From Oceanidesulfovibrio marinus (GTDB taxonomy: Bacteria; Desulfobacterota; Desulfovibrionia; Desulfovibrionales; Desulfovibrionaceae): a DNA stretch of 64,000 bases. The stretch is from assembly GCF_013085545.1 (NCBI RefSeq), contig NZ_CP039543.1, positions 4,309,322 to 4,373,321 of the forward strand, in the 5' to 3' direction. The notes beneath the pieces are model-generated. The model made no database searches and was not told the DNA's origin. It saw only the letters and a program-made list of their open reading frames with translations. This document shows, in pieces, positions 17,758-62,507 of the stretch. The stretch's first letter is position 1. Every line of letters begins with the position of its first letter. Made by a program: the position numbers and the translations under genes.

Positions 17758-18303
17758 CCGCGATGCCTGCACAGCATGACGCCAGCGCTGGCGTCAACAA
17801 ACGCTGGGATTCAGCTCTGAGCAGCTATAGCGTGCTGGAGTATTGGCGGAGGGAGAGGGATTCTCGTGGCCAGACATGAAATGCGTTACTTCTCAGCGTG
17901 TTGTGTCCACTGCTCAAGTCTAGGATGTAACGCGTTTCTGTAACACTTTCAAGGTGTCCGTCCTTCCTGAAAGTGCTCATCGTCCAATTCGAATCCCTCT
18001 TTATCCTCCGAACCAGCGGGCTAAGCATATTGAGGCACCTCACGGCAGAAGGCCTGGAAGCAACTTCAAGGCGGTCAAGTCCAAGCAGCGCGCGTGCTTA
18101 TCGACAAGCTTGAGGCCACTCAGAAGAAGGTGGAATAATGGACAGCCGGCGGAGAAGGTGGAATGCGTCAGAGAGCCCCGCTGGAAGCCGCAGCCCTCTT
18201 GGATTTCGGCTGGGCCGCAACCACGCTCTTATGCAGAGAATCGACCGGAAGGTTCTTGCGCCAACCCTTAAATGCAACGACAGCTGGAATCCGTGTGTTC
18301 AGC
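17758..18303. other. Degenerate junction region at the left island end
   Basis: About 545 bp with no intact gene. It contains the 20-bp tRNA-Ser 3' fragment (17844-17863). About 125 bp further, in the opposite orientation, is a partial match TTCGAATCCCTCT (17988-18000) followed by TTATCCTCCGAACCA, also reminiscent of a tRNA-Ser 3' end. Short open stretches around 18030-18290 look like decayed coding sequence without a recognisable family. This fits an old recombination junction. Confidence 0.5.
17844..17863 (-). repeat. Left att-like repeat: 20-bp copy of tRNA-Ser 3' end
   Basis: TGGCGGAGGGAGAGGGATTC here is identical to 34510-34529, the last 20 nt of tRNA-Ser including the encoded CCA, in the same orientation. 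Sequence identity stops abruptly on the inner side. A duplicated tRNA 3' end is the normal footprint of tyrosine-integrase insertion. Confidence 0.8.
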
Positions 18304-34914: not shown

Positions 34915-34951
34915 CATGTCTGAAGGAACTACGGTACGTATAGTCGTTCCC

Positions 34952-35065
34952 GGGGGACGCTGTCTCTCAGGCCCACTGCCGGGGAACGCTGTTCCCCGGA
35001 CCCCAGAAATGGGTACAGGAAGCTAAGCTCCCTGGCGGGGTGCGCGAGGGGCAGAGCCCCTCGGA
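34952..35065. repeat. Composite palindromic element, copy C
   Basis: This copy has the same hairpin order as copy B. A decayed GGGGGAC-GCT-GTCTCTC comes first (34952-34968). Next is CCGGGGAAC-GCT-GTTCCCCGG (34979-34999), then an imperfect relative of CCAGGGAGCT-A-AGCTCCCTGG (35014-35034). Last is CGAGGGGC-AGA-GCCCCTCG (35044-35062). The spacer ACCCCAGAAATGGGT joins the middle hairpins. It lies just after htpG. Confidence 0.8.
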
Positions 35066-43832: not shown

Positions 43833-43977
43833 TTCGATTTTTGGTGGATGCCCTTGGTCGGAACGCCTCAGCCCCGTTGTAAGAACGCACACGACAGCCT
43901 CCAGCGGGCAGGGGCTCGCCGCGTCGCGAAAGGTTCGTTGCGTTCCCGGTCCGATTCTCCTCTCCTGGAAAATTGTG

Positions 43978-44043
43978 TACCCCAGAAGTGGGTCCAGGGA
44001 GCTGACCTCCCTGGCGGATGCCCGGGGGCAGAGCCCTCGGACC
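43978..44043. repeat. Composite palindromic element, partial copy D2
   Basis: ACCCCAGAAGTGGGT comes first, then CCAGGGAG-CTGAC-CTCCCTGG (43994-44014), then CCGGGGGC-AGA-GCCCTCGG (44022-44040). This is the right half of the element; the left two hairpins are missing. Confidence 0.7.
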
Positions 44044-52796: not shown

Positions 52797-52910
52797 CCCG
52801 AGGGCGCTGCCCTCGGGCTCCCGCCAGGGAGCTAAGCTCCCTGGACCCATTTCTGGGGTCCAGGGGAATTGAATTCCCCTGGCAGGGGGCATGGGGGACA
52901 GCGTCCCCCG
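52797..52910. repeat. Composite palindromic element, copy A (most intact)
   Basis: Four hairpins stand in order: CCCGAGGGC-GCT-GCCCTCGGG (52797-52817), CCAGGGAGCT-A-AGCTCCCTGG (52824-52844), a 23-nt palindrome CCAGGGGAATT-G-mirror (52860-52882), and GGGGGAC-AGC-GTCCCCC (52893-52909). The linker between the second and third (GACCC-ATTTCTG-GGGTC) is itself a small hairpin. It is the exact reverse order of copies B and C. It lies between convergent lipA and recJ. Confidence 0.85.
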
Positions 52911-52923
52911 CTACCATTGTTGG

Positions 52924-58508: not shown

Positions 58509-59825
58509 TCATGGCGTGATGCGGGTGACGACCAGCGTCTCGTTGCGCACGCCCACGGGCCGTGCCGGGATCAGCCGACCCACCAGCGAAGGCTCCAACG
58601 TCTGGTCGAACACGCAGCTCAGGTACGTCTCCGAGGTACCCCTGGCTGTAGTGGCAGGGGTGGACGCGGCGTCTCCTGCGGACTCCAGCGCCACGGTCAC
58701 GGCGTCCAGCTCCGTCTCGGCGTGCAGGAACGTGCGCTTCTTCTCCGCGGCGATGCCACGCAGAACCGCGGCGCGGCGTTTTTTCTCCTGAGGCGGCACA
58801 TCATCACGCATGCCCGCTGCCACGGTGCCTTTTCTTGGCGAGAAAGGGAAGACATGCGCGTAGGTCAGTGGCAGGGCGCGGCAGAACTCCTCGCTCCTGG
58901 CGAAGTCCTCCGCGCTCTCGCCGGGGAAGCCTACGATGACGTCCACGCCCAGGCCAAAGCGCGGCCAGGTTGCGGAAAGCTCTTCCACAAAATGTTGAAT
59001 CTGCTCCGGCGTGTAGTGGCTGCGGCGCATGGCGGACAGCACGCCGGGGCTGGCGCTTTGCAGGGAGACGTGCAGGTGCGGGCAGACCAGCGAGCAGCCG
59101 GCGATGGTCTCCAGGCCGGCGTCGGTGAGCAGCGAGGGGTCCAGCGAGGAAAGGCGCAGCCGTGCGCGGCCGGTCCACTCCGGCGCAAGCGCGGCGTCCA
59201 GCGCTGCGAGGAGGCTCCAGAAATCGCTCGGTGGATCGAGGTCCGGCCCGTACTGGCGCAGGTTCACGCCGCTGAGCATGATCTCGCGCACGCCGGAGCC
59301 GAGCAGCCGTCGCGCCTCGGCAATGACGGCGTCGGCCGGGCGGCTCACCGGGCCGCCGCGGGCGCGCGGCACGATGCAGTAGGCGCAGTTGTGGGAGCAG
59401 CCGTCCTGGACCACCAGATTGCCGCGGGCGCGCTCCGCCCCGGTCACGTGGAACTCTGTGGGAACTGTGGTGTTGGGAGATGCCGCCGCGGCGGCGTAGC
59501 GTGTGAGCAGCGCCGTCTTCTGCTTCTGGGGAACAATCTCGCTGACGCCGGCCAAGTCGGACAGCTCGTCGCGGCAGGCCTCGGCCGCGCAGCCCGTGAG
59601 CACGATGCGCGCCTTCGGGTTCTCGCGCACCAGGCGGGAGACGCGCTGGCGCAGGTCGCGGATGGCGCGGGCCGTGACCGCGCAGGAGTTCACCAGCAGC
59701 ATGTGGGCCGTGGCCGGATCATCCGTCTCCTCCAGCCCGGCGGCGCGCCACGCCTCGCGCAGGGCCTGGCTCTCGTACTGATTCACCTTGCAGCCCATGG
59801 TCACGATGTGGAAGCGCTGCGTCAT
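58509..59825 (-). CDS. mtaB: tRNA t6A37 methylthiotransferase MtaB
   Basis: A 438-aa radical SAM methylthiotransferase. N-terminal UPF0004 domain cysteines are in TMGCKVNQYES, NSCAVTARA and LTGCAAEA. The radical SAM motif is CSHNCAYCIVPRARG, followed by SGVNLRQYG. The C-terminal TRAM-like domain is present. MtaB modifies t6A at position 37 of ANN-decoding tRNAs. It overlaps mnmA by 4 nt, placing two tRNA-thiolation enzymes together. Confidence 0.92.
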   Translation of the reverse strand: MTQRFHIVTMGCKVNQYESQALREAWRAAGLEETDDPATAHMLLVNSCAVTARAIRDLRQRVSRLVRENPKARIVLTGCAAEACRDELSDLAGVSEIVPQKQKTALLTRYAAAAASPNTTVPTEFHVTGAERARGNLVVQDGCSHNCAYCIVPRARGGPVSRPADAVIAEARRLLGSGVREIMLSGVNLRQYGPDLDPPSDFWSLLAALDAALAPEWTGRARLRLSSLDPSLLTDAGLETIAGCSLVCPHLHVSLQSASPGVLSAMRRSHYTPEQIQHFVEELSATWPRFGLGVDVIVGFPGESAEDFARSEEFCRALPLTYAHVFPFSPRKGTVAAGMRDDVPPQEKKRRAAVLRGIAAEKKRTFLHAETELDAVTVALESAGDAASTPATTARGTSETYLSCVFDQTLEPSLVGRLIPARPVGVRNETLVVTRITP

Positions 59826-61027
59826 GCCGGCGTCTCTGTGGTGATGATGCCGCCGGCAAGCACCCGGCCGGAAGCGTCGTACACCGCAGCCACCTGCCCG
59901 GCTGCCGGCAGGGAGCGCGGCGTATCAAAGCGGATGTCGAGCCGGTCCTGCCCATACGACACACGAGCCGGCGCTGCCTGCTGGCGATAGCGCGTCTTGA
60001 CCAGGGTCTTCTCAGGCCACTCAGTGGGCGGGACGAGCAAGTTCACCTGCCGGGCCGTGCAGCTGGCCGCCGTGGTCAGCTCCTTGGAGCCCACGATCAG
60101 TGCGTTGCGGGGCTGGTCCTTGCCGAGCACGTACAGGGGCTCCGCGTACGCCACGCCGATGCCGCGGCGCTGGCCTGGCGTGTAGCGGTGCAGCCCGCCA
60201 TGCGTGCCCAGGCGTTCTCCGCTGGGCAGCTCGATGGGGCCGGCGTCGCAGAGCTCGGGCTGCCGCGCCTCGATAAAGGCCACATAGTCGTCGTCCGGCA
60301 CAAAGCAGACCTCCTGGCTCTCGCCAGGCGCGGGCGGGGTGAGGCCGCGTTCCTGCAAGGCGGCCATGGTGTCACGCTTATAGCGCTCGCCCAGGGGAAA
60401 GATGGCGCAGGCCAGGGCGCGTTCCGGCACCAGAGACAGGAAGTAGGACTGGTCCTTGGCCGGGTCGGCACCGCAAAACAAGGCCGTGCGCTCCGGACCG
60501 TGCTCCAGCCTGGCGTAGTGGCCCGTGGCGATGTGCGACGCGCCGTGGCCGCGGGCCTCGTCCAGCAGCAGGCCGAACTTCACCTCGCGATTGCAGAGCG
60601 CACACGGATTGGGCGTGCGGCCGGCAGCGTACTCCGCCACAAACGGCCGGATGACCGCCTCTTCAAACCGGTCGCGTACGTCCGCGACCACCAGGCGCAC
60701 GCTGAGCAAGGCGCAGACACGCTCCAGGTCCGCGCACAACCGCTGGTCCGCCTCGCGGATGAAAAGCCCATGGATGGCGATGACATTGTCCGGGCCGTAC
60801 GTCTCCACCAGCAACGCCAGCGCCAGAAGACTGTCCCGACCGCCCGAGACCGCCACCGCGACCCGGCGCGGCTGGTGGGGGACGCTGTCCCCCAAGCCCC
60901 CTGCCAGGGGAACACTGTTCCCCTGGACCCCAGAAAAGGGTCCAGGGAGCCCTGCTCCCTGGCGGGTGCCCGAGGGCAGAGCCCTCGGAATATTGGGGCG
61001 AGTCAAGGCGTCCATATTCTTGGACAC
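59822..61027 (-). CDS. mnmA: tRNA 2-thiouridylase MnmA with an in-frame palindromic element at the N-terminus
   Basis: A 401-aa enzyme making s2U34 in tRNA. The PP-loop is VAVAVSGGRDSLLALAL (Arg where most have Val), and catalytic cysteines are in NPCALCNREVKFG and GESQEVCFV. The start is GTG 61027 (AGGAG 4 nt before it, overlapping the gatA stop) or ATG 61015. About residues 14-50 are encoded by palindromic copy B, so the PP-loop begins near residue 56 rather than near 5. No ATG, GTG or TTG occurs after the element except a GTG inside the PP-loop strand. Translation must therefore pass through the element. Whether the extension is cleaved or tolerated is unknown. Confidence 0.9.
   Translation of the reverse strand: MSKNMDALTRPNIPRALPSGTRQGAGLPGPFSGVQGNSVPLAGGLGDSVPHQPRRVAVAVSGGRDSLLALALLVETYGPDNVIAIHGLFIREADQRLCADLERVCALLSVRLVVADVRDRFEEAVIRPFVAEYAAGRTPNPCALCNREVKFGLLLDEARGHGASHIATGHYARLEHGPERTALFCGADPAKDQSYFLSLVPERALACAIFPLGERYKRDTMAALQERGLTPPAPGESQEVCFVPDDDYVAFIEARQPELCDAGPIELPSGERLGTHGGLHRYTPGQRRGIGVAYAEPLYVLGKDQPRNALIVGSKELTTAASCTARQVNLLVPPTEWPEKTLVKTRYRQQAAPARVSYGQDRLDIRFDTPRSLPAAGQVAAVYDASGRVLAGGIITTETPA
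60877..60989. repeat. Composite palindromic element, copy B, inside mnmA
   Basis: Four hairpins: GGGGGAC-GCT-GTCCCCC (60877-60893), CCAGGGGAAC-ACT-GTTCCCCTGG (60904-60926), CCAGGGAG-CCCTG-CTCCCTGG (60942-60962) and CCGAGGGC-AGA-GCCCTCGG (60970-60988). The spacer CCCCAGAAAAGGG is between the middle two. It has no stop codon in the mnmA frame and encodes a Gly/Pro/Ser-rich segment. Confidence 0.85.
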
Positions 61028-61034
61028 GAGACTC

Positions 61035-62507
61035 CTATCCGGGAATACCAGCCGGCTGTCCGATGGGTTCCACGGCCTGCTCCAGCAGGTGCGCGGTTTG
61101 GAAGAGGGTGGTCTCGTCAAAGGACTTGCCGATGAGTTGCAGGCCCACGGGCATGCCGGATTCGCCGCCGCGGCCCACGGGCAGCACGAGGCCGGGCAGG
61201 CCGGCGAGGTTGATGGACAGGGTGAAGATGTCCATGAGGTACATTTTGAGTGGGTCGTCCGTGAGCGCGCCGAGTGGCCAGGCCACGGTGGGCGAGGTAG
61301 CGCCGGCGAGCACGTCGCAGCCGTCCAGGGCGGCCAGGAAGTCGTCGCGGATGCGGCGGCGGACCTGCGCGGCCTTGCGGTAGTAGGCGTCGTAGTAGCC
61401 GGCGGAAAGGACGTAGGTGCCGATCATGATGCGGCGCTGGACCTCGTCGCCGAAGCCTTCGGTGCGGGAGCGCACGTAGAGGTCCATGAGGTCCTCGGGC
61501 TTTTCGGCGCGGCGGCCGTAGCGCACGCCATCGAAGCGGGCGAGGTTGGAGCTCGCCTCGGCCATGGCGATGATGTAGTAGGTGGGCACCGCGTACTTGG
61601 TCAGCGGCAGGGAGACCTCTTTGAGGGTGGCGCCGAGATCCTTGAGTGTGTCCAGACTTTTGGACAGGGTGCGCTCCACCTCGGGGTCCAGGCCTTCGCC
61701 CCAGTACTCCTTGGGCAGGCCCACGGTGAGGCCCTTCAGGTCGCCGCGCTCAGCCAGCAACCTGGCGTAGGGCTCCACGGGACAGTCTACGCTGGTGGAG
61801 TCCTTGGTGTCGTGGCCAGCCATGGTTTCCAGCATGATGGCGGCGTCCTCCACGGTGCGGCCAAAGGGGCCGGCCTGGTCCAGGGAGGAGCCGTAGGCCA
61901 CCAGGCCGTAGCGCGAGACGCGGCCGTAGGTGGGCTTGATGCCGACGCAGCCGCAGAGGGAAGCGGGCAGGCGGATGGAGCCGCCGGTGTCCGTGCCCAC
62001 GGAGGCGTAACACTGGTTGGCGCTGACCGTGGCGGCGGAGCCGCCGGAGGAGCCGCCGGGGATGCGGTCGGTATCCCAGGGGTTGCGGGTGACGCCGTAG
62101 TACGAGGTCTCTGTGGAGGAGCCCATGGCGAACTCGTCCAGGTTGGCTTTGCCGATGATGATCGCGCCGGCGTCCAGAAGTTTGGACACCAGGTGCGCGT
62201 CGTAGAAGGGCACGAAGTTTTCCAGGATGCGCGATCCGCAGGTGTTGGTAACGCCGGAGACGCAGATGAGGTCCTTGATGGCGATGGGCACGCCCCAGAG
62301 CGGCTTGTCCGGGTCAGGGCCGGCGGCGTCCAGGGCGTCGGCGCGGGCGCGGGCCTCCTCGGGCATGGGCCGGGTCAGGGCGTTGAGCGTGGCGTCGGTG
62401 GCTTCGATGCGGTCGAGGCAGGCGTCCACAACCTCGCGGGCGCTCACTTCCTTGCGCGCCAGCTTCTCACGGACGTTCTTCAGACTCAGGGTAACGAGAT
62501 CGGACAT
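61035..62507 (-). CDS. gatA: Glutamyl-tRNA(Gln)/aspartyl-tRNA(Asn) amidotransferase subunit A
   Basis: A 490-aa amidase of the GatCAB complex that converts misacylated Glu-tRNA(Gln) or Asp-tRNA(Asn). The Ser-Ser-Lys triad regions are intact: [15 protein letters not shown] (Lys), then [13 protein letters not shown] and [16 protein letters not shown] (Ser). The length is standard. It lies 45 nt after gatC. No gatB is in the window. mnmA follows within 8 nt. Confidence 0.96.

Follow-up and report, generated by a model that had tools for sequence, protein, structure and literature searches.

The window analysed here is a stretch of 64,000 nt of DNA from Oceanidesulfovibrio marinus, which is related to sulfate-reducing bacteria. 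On its minus strand lies mnmA (59822..61027), which encodes tRNA 2-thiouridine(34) synthase and reads as 401 amino acids from a GTG at 61027. The protein scores just over the curated cut-off of NCBIfam NF001138 (284.6 bits, cut-off 284) and just over that of TIGR00420 (239.8 bits, cut-off 236.95), and it carries the Pfam domains PF03054, PF20259 and PF20258, with the first domain match beginning at residue 55. Upstream on the same strand there is an open reading frame (61035..62507) with a Pfam Amidase match (PF01425, 517 bits), which among the amidases we take to be GatA, and mnmA starts 7 nt after the gatA stop. The start signal of mnmA (61025..61037, minus strand) comprises the gatA stop TAG (61035-61037), an overlapping Shine-Dalgarno sequence TAGGAG, a 4-nt spacer and GTG 61027. 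Between this signal and the PP-loop SGGRDS (60830..60847, minus strand; residues 61-66), a covariance model delimits a copy of a palindromic repeat of about 115 nt with four hairpins (60875..60989, minus strand), which lies 45 nt behind the gatA stop and in the mnmA frame, covering residues ~14-51.

The repeat copy in the mnmA reading frame and the encoded enzyme

A chance likeness of the mnmA copy to other copies was ruled out by the E-values and the fold z-score, as a second copy elsewhere in the genome agrees with it at 90% over 115 nt (E 2.7e-38) and the predicted fold of 60870-61040 beats all of 200 dinucleotide shuffles (z -6.46). An Rfam search of 60700-61200 gave five weak matches, all far below the gathering scores, and hence no family match. 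A previous sequence-only reading of this DNA had placed a palindromic element at 60877-60989 and had described it as free of stop codons; both statements hold, with the frame open from GTG 61027 across the repeat to the stop ending at 59822. The same reading had put the addition at about 37 residues, compared with ~38 contributed by the repeat itself and a net difference from the sister species of 48 codons. The copy is in fact stop-free in all six frames. An open frame alone was nevertheless rejected as a sign of selection, since 51 of the 103 copies in the genome have no stop in the frame that mnmA uses; as a mean of the six frames, 52% of the copies are open per frame, compared with 42% in base shuffles.

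The protein that would include the repeat is neither redundant nor decayed. A genome search with the MnmA protein found mnmA as the sole full-length match, the remaining matches being short and nearly all due to the repeat peptide on the N-terminal side of the protein, which rules out a second, dispensable copy. In an alignment of 30 MnmA sequences, S61, G62, G63, D65 and S66 are invariant, and so are the whole SGGxDS motif, C142/C145 and C241, the PP-loop and cysteine motifs that presumably carry out catalysis. In an AlphaFold2 model built with 30 sequences, 312 of the 401 residues reach a pLDDT of at least 90, whereas residues 1-49 remain below 50 and are predicted to be disordered; strand 1 of the model comprises residues 56-59. 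The body of the model superimposes on 2HMA (MnmA of S. pneumoniae) with Z 41.0 and rmsd 2.1 over 344 aligned residues, the match spanning residues 52-401, and on the MnmA-tRNA complexes 2DER, 2DET and 2DEU, which we take to be of the E. coli enzyme, with Z 37.5-39.5 (39.5 for 2DET) from residue 52 or 53. The fold is thus the same as in these two enzymes over residues 52-401, and the O. marinus protein differs from both by an N-terminal addition of ~49 residues. The intact motifs and the intact predicted fold also rule out that mnmA is a pseudogene.

The repeat family and its places in the genome

A covariance model of the repeat gave 128 matches in the 4.76-Mb genome, merged by hand into 103 places, of which about 102 are distinct as L235 and L246 overlap; as 150 of 3195 candidates were scored, these counts may lack weak copies. 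In the alignment of 27 copies from which the model was built, 13 of the 40 consensus pairs have at least one copy changed on both sides with the pairing kept. Three further copies lie in the window, at 52797..52911 (plus strand), 34950..35064 (minus strand) and, as a weak match (E 1.0e-5), 43946..44041 (minus strand), all of them intergenic according to a codon-usage gene caller. The mnmA copy has the best score of the 128 matches, a rank that carries less weight because likeness to this copy guided the choice of seeds and the model is biased in its favour. Next to the last hairpin, or in its place, there is often a GCCTCCGGCGGC/GCCGCCGGAGGC motif, as in the 3' flanks of L012, L017, L022 and L026 and at the ends of L187, L192 and L197 in the sister species, which suggests that the repeat may be modular, with exchangeable ends.

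Genes around the 103 places were called with our own codon-usage score, trained on 39 ORFs of the window. This caller trims starts and calls mnmA as starting behind the repeat, and for this reason the mnmA copy is counted among the 100 copies called intergenic, in the same-direction class. Of these 100, 49 have convergent neighbours, 47 have neighbours in the same direction and only four have divergent ones, against 20, 104 and 20 among 144 other neighbouring gene pairs drawn from the same loci (convergent excess, Fisher P 3e-9; divergent deficit, P 0.015). The same-direction copies begin at a median of 21 nt behind the upstream stop, and in 37 of the 47 the distance is at most 45 nt. The family is therefore REP-like in the wide sense, being made up of many palindromic copies near gene 3' ends with few between divergent genes, and its enrichment at gene ends is as expected of an RNA element of 3' ends or of an insertion preference for gene ends. 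At 45 nt behind the gatA stop, the mnmA copy sits within the usual range of the family; what makes it odd is that mnmA begins 7 nt after that stop, so that the same spot corresponds to codon 7-8 of mnmA.

Other contacts of the repeat with coding sequence were sought in a loose coding screen of 72 copies, the 31 later copies being assessed by the gene caller only. Thirteen copies passed the screen. Besides that of mnmA, these were ten that are followed by an in-frame ATG and two, L024 and L161, that shadow a gene on the opposite strand and were therefore rejected as read-through cases. The mnmA copy was the only one of the 103 places found with a predicted read-through of the whole repeat. Three copies, L158, L165 and L250 (G000:C1 1782869, 67722 and 3784583), overlap a called gene that seems to stop 60, 57 and 27 nt inside the repeat, respectively, and these genes would gain repeat-coded C-terminal tails of about 9-20 residues. 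Judging from these calls, the family seems to reach proteins at both ends, with a whole copy read through in mnmA only; the three C-terminal overlaps have no bearing on the mnmA start. At L222 (G000:C1 3695344) the copy stops 26 nt short of an ATG, and the protein encoded from there, MTAAIPARERIIFALDVP, resembles PyrF, a name that we assume; the frame is open backwards through the repeat, where there is no start codon. Among 20 copies of the sister species no clear coding case was seen, and one frame, at L183, is weak.

The sister species and the start of mnmA

The gatA-mnmA junction was compared with that of one other species of the genus (G001; mnmA locus L032), where the repeat is absent. 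In the sister the gatA stop TAG overlaps TAGGAG and is followed by a 3-nt spacer (CTC), a GTG and MPRNVDS-VAVAVSGGRDS, and in O. marinus TAGGAG is followed by a 4-nt spacer, a GTG and MSKNMDA-LTRPN-repeat-QPRR-VAVAVSGGRDS. By blastn, window positions 61010 and 60863 align to positions 18009 and 18012 of the sister contig, with 146 nt here against 2 nt there, a net difference of 144 nt or 48 codons. This extra stretch (60864..61009, minus strand), obtained from blastn against the sister contig and a pairwise alignment, consists of the repeat with 20 nt ahead of it and 11 nt behind. An affine-gap pairwise alignment places the whole difference in one gap directly after the MSKNMD codons, and the PP-loop motif accordingly begins at residue 61 in O. 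marinus and at residue 13 in the sister. The sequence-only reading had proposed aligning the mnmA upstream regions of relatives, and the alignment yields an element-free gene with the same start signal, in support of its claim that the element lies in frame between the native start and the PP-loop. In both species, then, the start signal precedes the point of insertion, and the simplest reading places the repeat within mnmA.

A search of 58 mnmA loci with the repeat model (some genomes being included twice, L039/L061 and L035/L063) found the repeat in the front of the mnmA reading frame only at the O. marinus locus itself. Four other loci have weak matches, one in the spacer before mnmA (L033) and three ~1 kb or more away. 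No second long front of the O. marinus kind appeared in the 30-protein alignment, which is no independent proof of short fronts because the starts of the relatives were picked by a script as the nearest ATG. At L033 (1323-1423; G032, another genus) a similar repeat (E 1.5e-4) follows the gatA stop and forms the spacer between gatA and mnmA, and an ATG with MTRVAVAVSGG comes after it. The gatA-mnmA junction holds repeats in two genera of one family, one probably read through and the other not, and the ATG behind the G032 repeat indicates that repeats placed here are not necessarily coding.

Estimates for the start at GTG 61027 are mixed, with a Shine-Dalgarno duplex energy of -6.8 kcal/mol and a mean unpaired value of 0.46, but a short spacer (4 nt, and 3 nt in the sister) and a GTG codon that is itself predicted to be paired, which counts against a reading through the repeat. 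Initiation at ATG 61015 instead, a codon that likewise precedes the repeat, would leave the read-through conclusion the same. Among 17 same-direction copies with a downstream gene called within 60 nt, mnmA included, all 16 others have an in-frame ATG at or after the repeat end, and the same test found none for mnmA. The claim of the sequence-only reading that no start codon follows the element before the PP-loop does not stand, however, since there are two in frame, a TTG inside the repeat (60893..60895, minus strand) and a GTG that falls within strand 1 of the enzyme and precedes the SGG motif by three codons (60854..60856, minus strand). Both look poor as starts, although the TTG may serve as one.

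The main rival explanation is that translation begins at TTG 60895, with M-GDSVPHQPRRVAVAVSGG, in which case the repeat would be mostly untranslated leader and the protein would have a near-normal front. This start is in frame and leaves 16 residues before SGG, within the range of 6-23 left by the nearest in-frame ATGs found in 49 of 57 mnmA loci, so that a protein of normal length would result, and its duplex energy (-6.0 kcal/mol, estimated like its accessibility) is near that of GTG 61027. A published caution on REPs points the same way, namely that many N-terminal cases are possibly extragenic, with translation maybe starting downstream (PMC3733652). On the other hand, only 1 nt separates the G-rich stretch from TTG 60895, and the codon is flanked by two strong hairpins, with a mean unpaired value of 0.24 as opposed to 0.46 at GTG 61027. 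Moreover, TTG is a weak start codon, and the Shine-Dalgarno sequence and GTG upstream are kept in the sister species, which argues against a start behind them. We consider this start unlikely, and translation of mnmA through the repeat from its native upstream start, giving a MnmA with a disordered front, is the reading that we find likely.

How the two species came to differ is a separate matter, compatible with read-through in either case. Eighteen relatives hand-picked from 58 were searched with the repeat model, and eight gave matches at E <= 0.001. The sister has 36 matches on both strands, at 24 distinct places at E <= 0.001, compared with about 102 in O. marinus, a comparison in which the sister assembly is in 330 contigs. 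When the 20 stronger of these 24 places were compared, 14 lay at a junction that also holds a copy in O. marinus, and the family is therefore old and many copies are inherited. The age of the family makes it possible that the longer front is ancestral and that the sister lost the repeat by deletion, and the repeat at the gatA-mnmA junction of one more genus (G032) adds to this; we nevertheless rate a loss as quite improbable, since no mnmA front of any other locus searched has a repeat match, the G032 repeat lies in a spacer before an ATG, and the best model score of the 128 belongs to the mnmA copy, with the bias of seed choice noted above. The comparison of loci instead favours a gain in O. 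marinus, because the repeat is absent from the other mnmA loci searched. At the mnmA site neither paired terminal inverted repeats nor a duplicated target was seen on inspection by eye, where the flanking 20 and 11 nt, part of the extra stretch but outside the repeat consensus, blur the ends. Lastly, a start at GTG 60856, giving MAVSGG, is in frame but hardly credible, as it would cut strand 1 (residues 56-59) in half, keep three residues ahead of SGG where the nearest ATGs of relatives leave at least six, and depend on a weak Shine-Dalgarno sequence (-3.7 kcal/mol).

A proposed course of events and comparison with known repeats

We propose that a hairpin-rich, REP-like repeat, which is found mostly just behind stop codons, came to sit 45 nt downstream of the gatA stop, and that the 7 nt between gatA and mnmA would have put this landing spot inside mnmA, after codon 7. 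Ribosomes starting at the native Shine-Dalgarno sequence and GTG 61027 could read through the hairpins because the added DNA keeps the frame (net 48 codons) and brings no stop in frame, and they would produce a MnmA with a disordered front of ~49 residues, an addition that may be tolerated because it precedes strand 1 of an otherwise intact enzyme. We infer that GTG 61027 is used in vivo, that the extended MnmA is active, and that a gain here, not a loss in the sister, is behind the difference. A bolder idea, which we regard as very doubtful, is that the hairpins, beyond being tolerated, newly serve to brake or couple translation, with tRNA 2-thiolation following gatA translation or hairpin melting, and that a repeat of 3' ends with its fixed placement makes new protein ends wherever genes lack spacers, N-terminal in mnmA and as C-terminal tails in the three genes above.

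The closest precedents are the Rickettsia palindromic elements (RPEs) and intragenic REPs. RPEs, 105-146 bp long, are reported from 19 reading frames of Rickettsia, and for guanylate kinase, one of the RPE-bearing products, both synthesis and activity have been demonstrated (PMC2229807); R. conorii proteins with an N-terminal RPE-1 are expressed in vivo, and intragenic REPs, N-terminal ones included, are reported in several other species, according to PMC3733652. The O. marinus repeat resembles RPEs in its length (115 nt), its stable hairpins, four in number, and its in-frame position in a conserved enzyme gene, mnmA having, as read from the sequence, an open frame and an upstream start signal common to the sister; the RPE targets mentioned there include truB, also a gene for a tRNA-modifying enzyme. 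The resemblance to Rickettsia elements pointed out by the sequence-only reading thus extends to the outcome, an in-frame palindrome in a housekeeping enzyme, but less so to the habit: against the 19 frames of RPEs there is one whole read-through copy among 103 places, with three genes that seem to end inside copies. The O. marinus repeat further differs from RPEs in being GC-rich, with four hairpins, in another bacterial class and with a strong preference for gene 3' ends.

This preference is shared by the GTAG- and CGTC-tagged REPs, which according to PMC3733652 likewise lie between same-direction or convergent genes, close behind the upstream gene, and some of which are intragenic, N-terminal included, some of the genes concerned being the only modified ones in their species. 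These REPs are 20-40 bp long, in contrast to the ~115-nt unit of four hairpins described here, and the main text of PMC3733652 contains no occurrence of Desulfovibrio. The repeat does not fit REPs of the RAYT type, given that a RAYT search (Y1_Tnp, PF01797) found no match in this genome and was positive in five of 14 control genomes. Correia/NEMIS, ERIC and other MITEs are similarly short, without a transposition protein of their own, with hairpin transcripts and sometimes in-frame fusions, as summarised in PMC2229807; at the mnmA site, with its blurred repeat ends, the features of a MITE, inverted repeats at the termini and a duplicated target site, were not seen by eye.

A literature search, mostly at record level, found no report of the repeat family in Desulfovibrionaceae, the family to which the named relatives point, nor of a palindrome in mnmA. 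As intragenic palindromes outside Rickettsia are already in print, the repeat in mnmA is a new example rather than a new principle. What is added here is the repeat family in Desulfovibrionaceae, its placement habit, and a clean pair of species of one genus, with and without a palindromic repeat in a housekeeping enzyme, outside Rickettsia. The case may also offer a simple reason for such N-terminal insertions, in that a repeat found just behind stop codons will end up in the following gene wherever no spacer separates the two.
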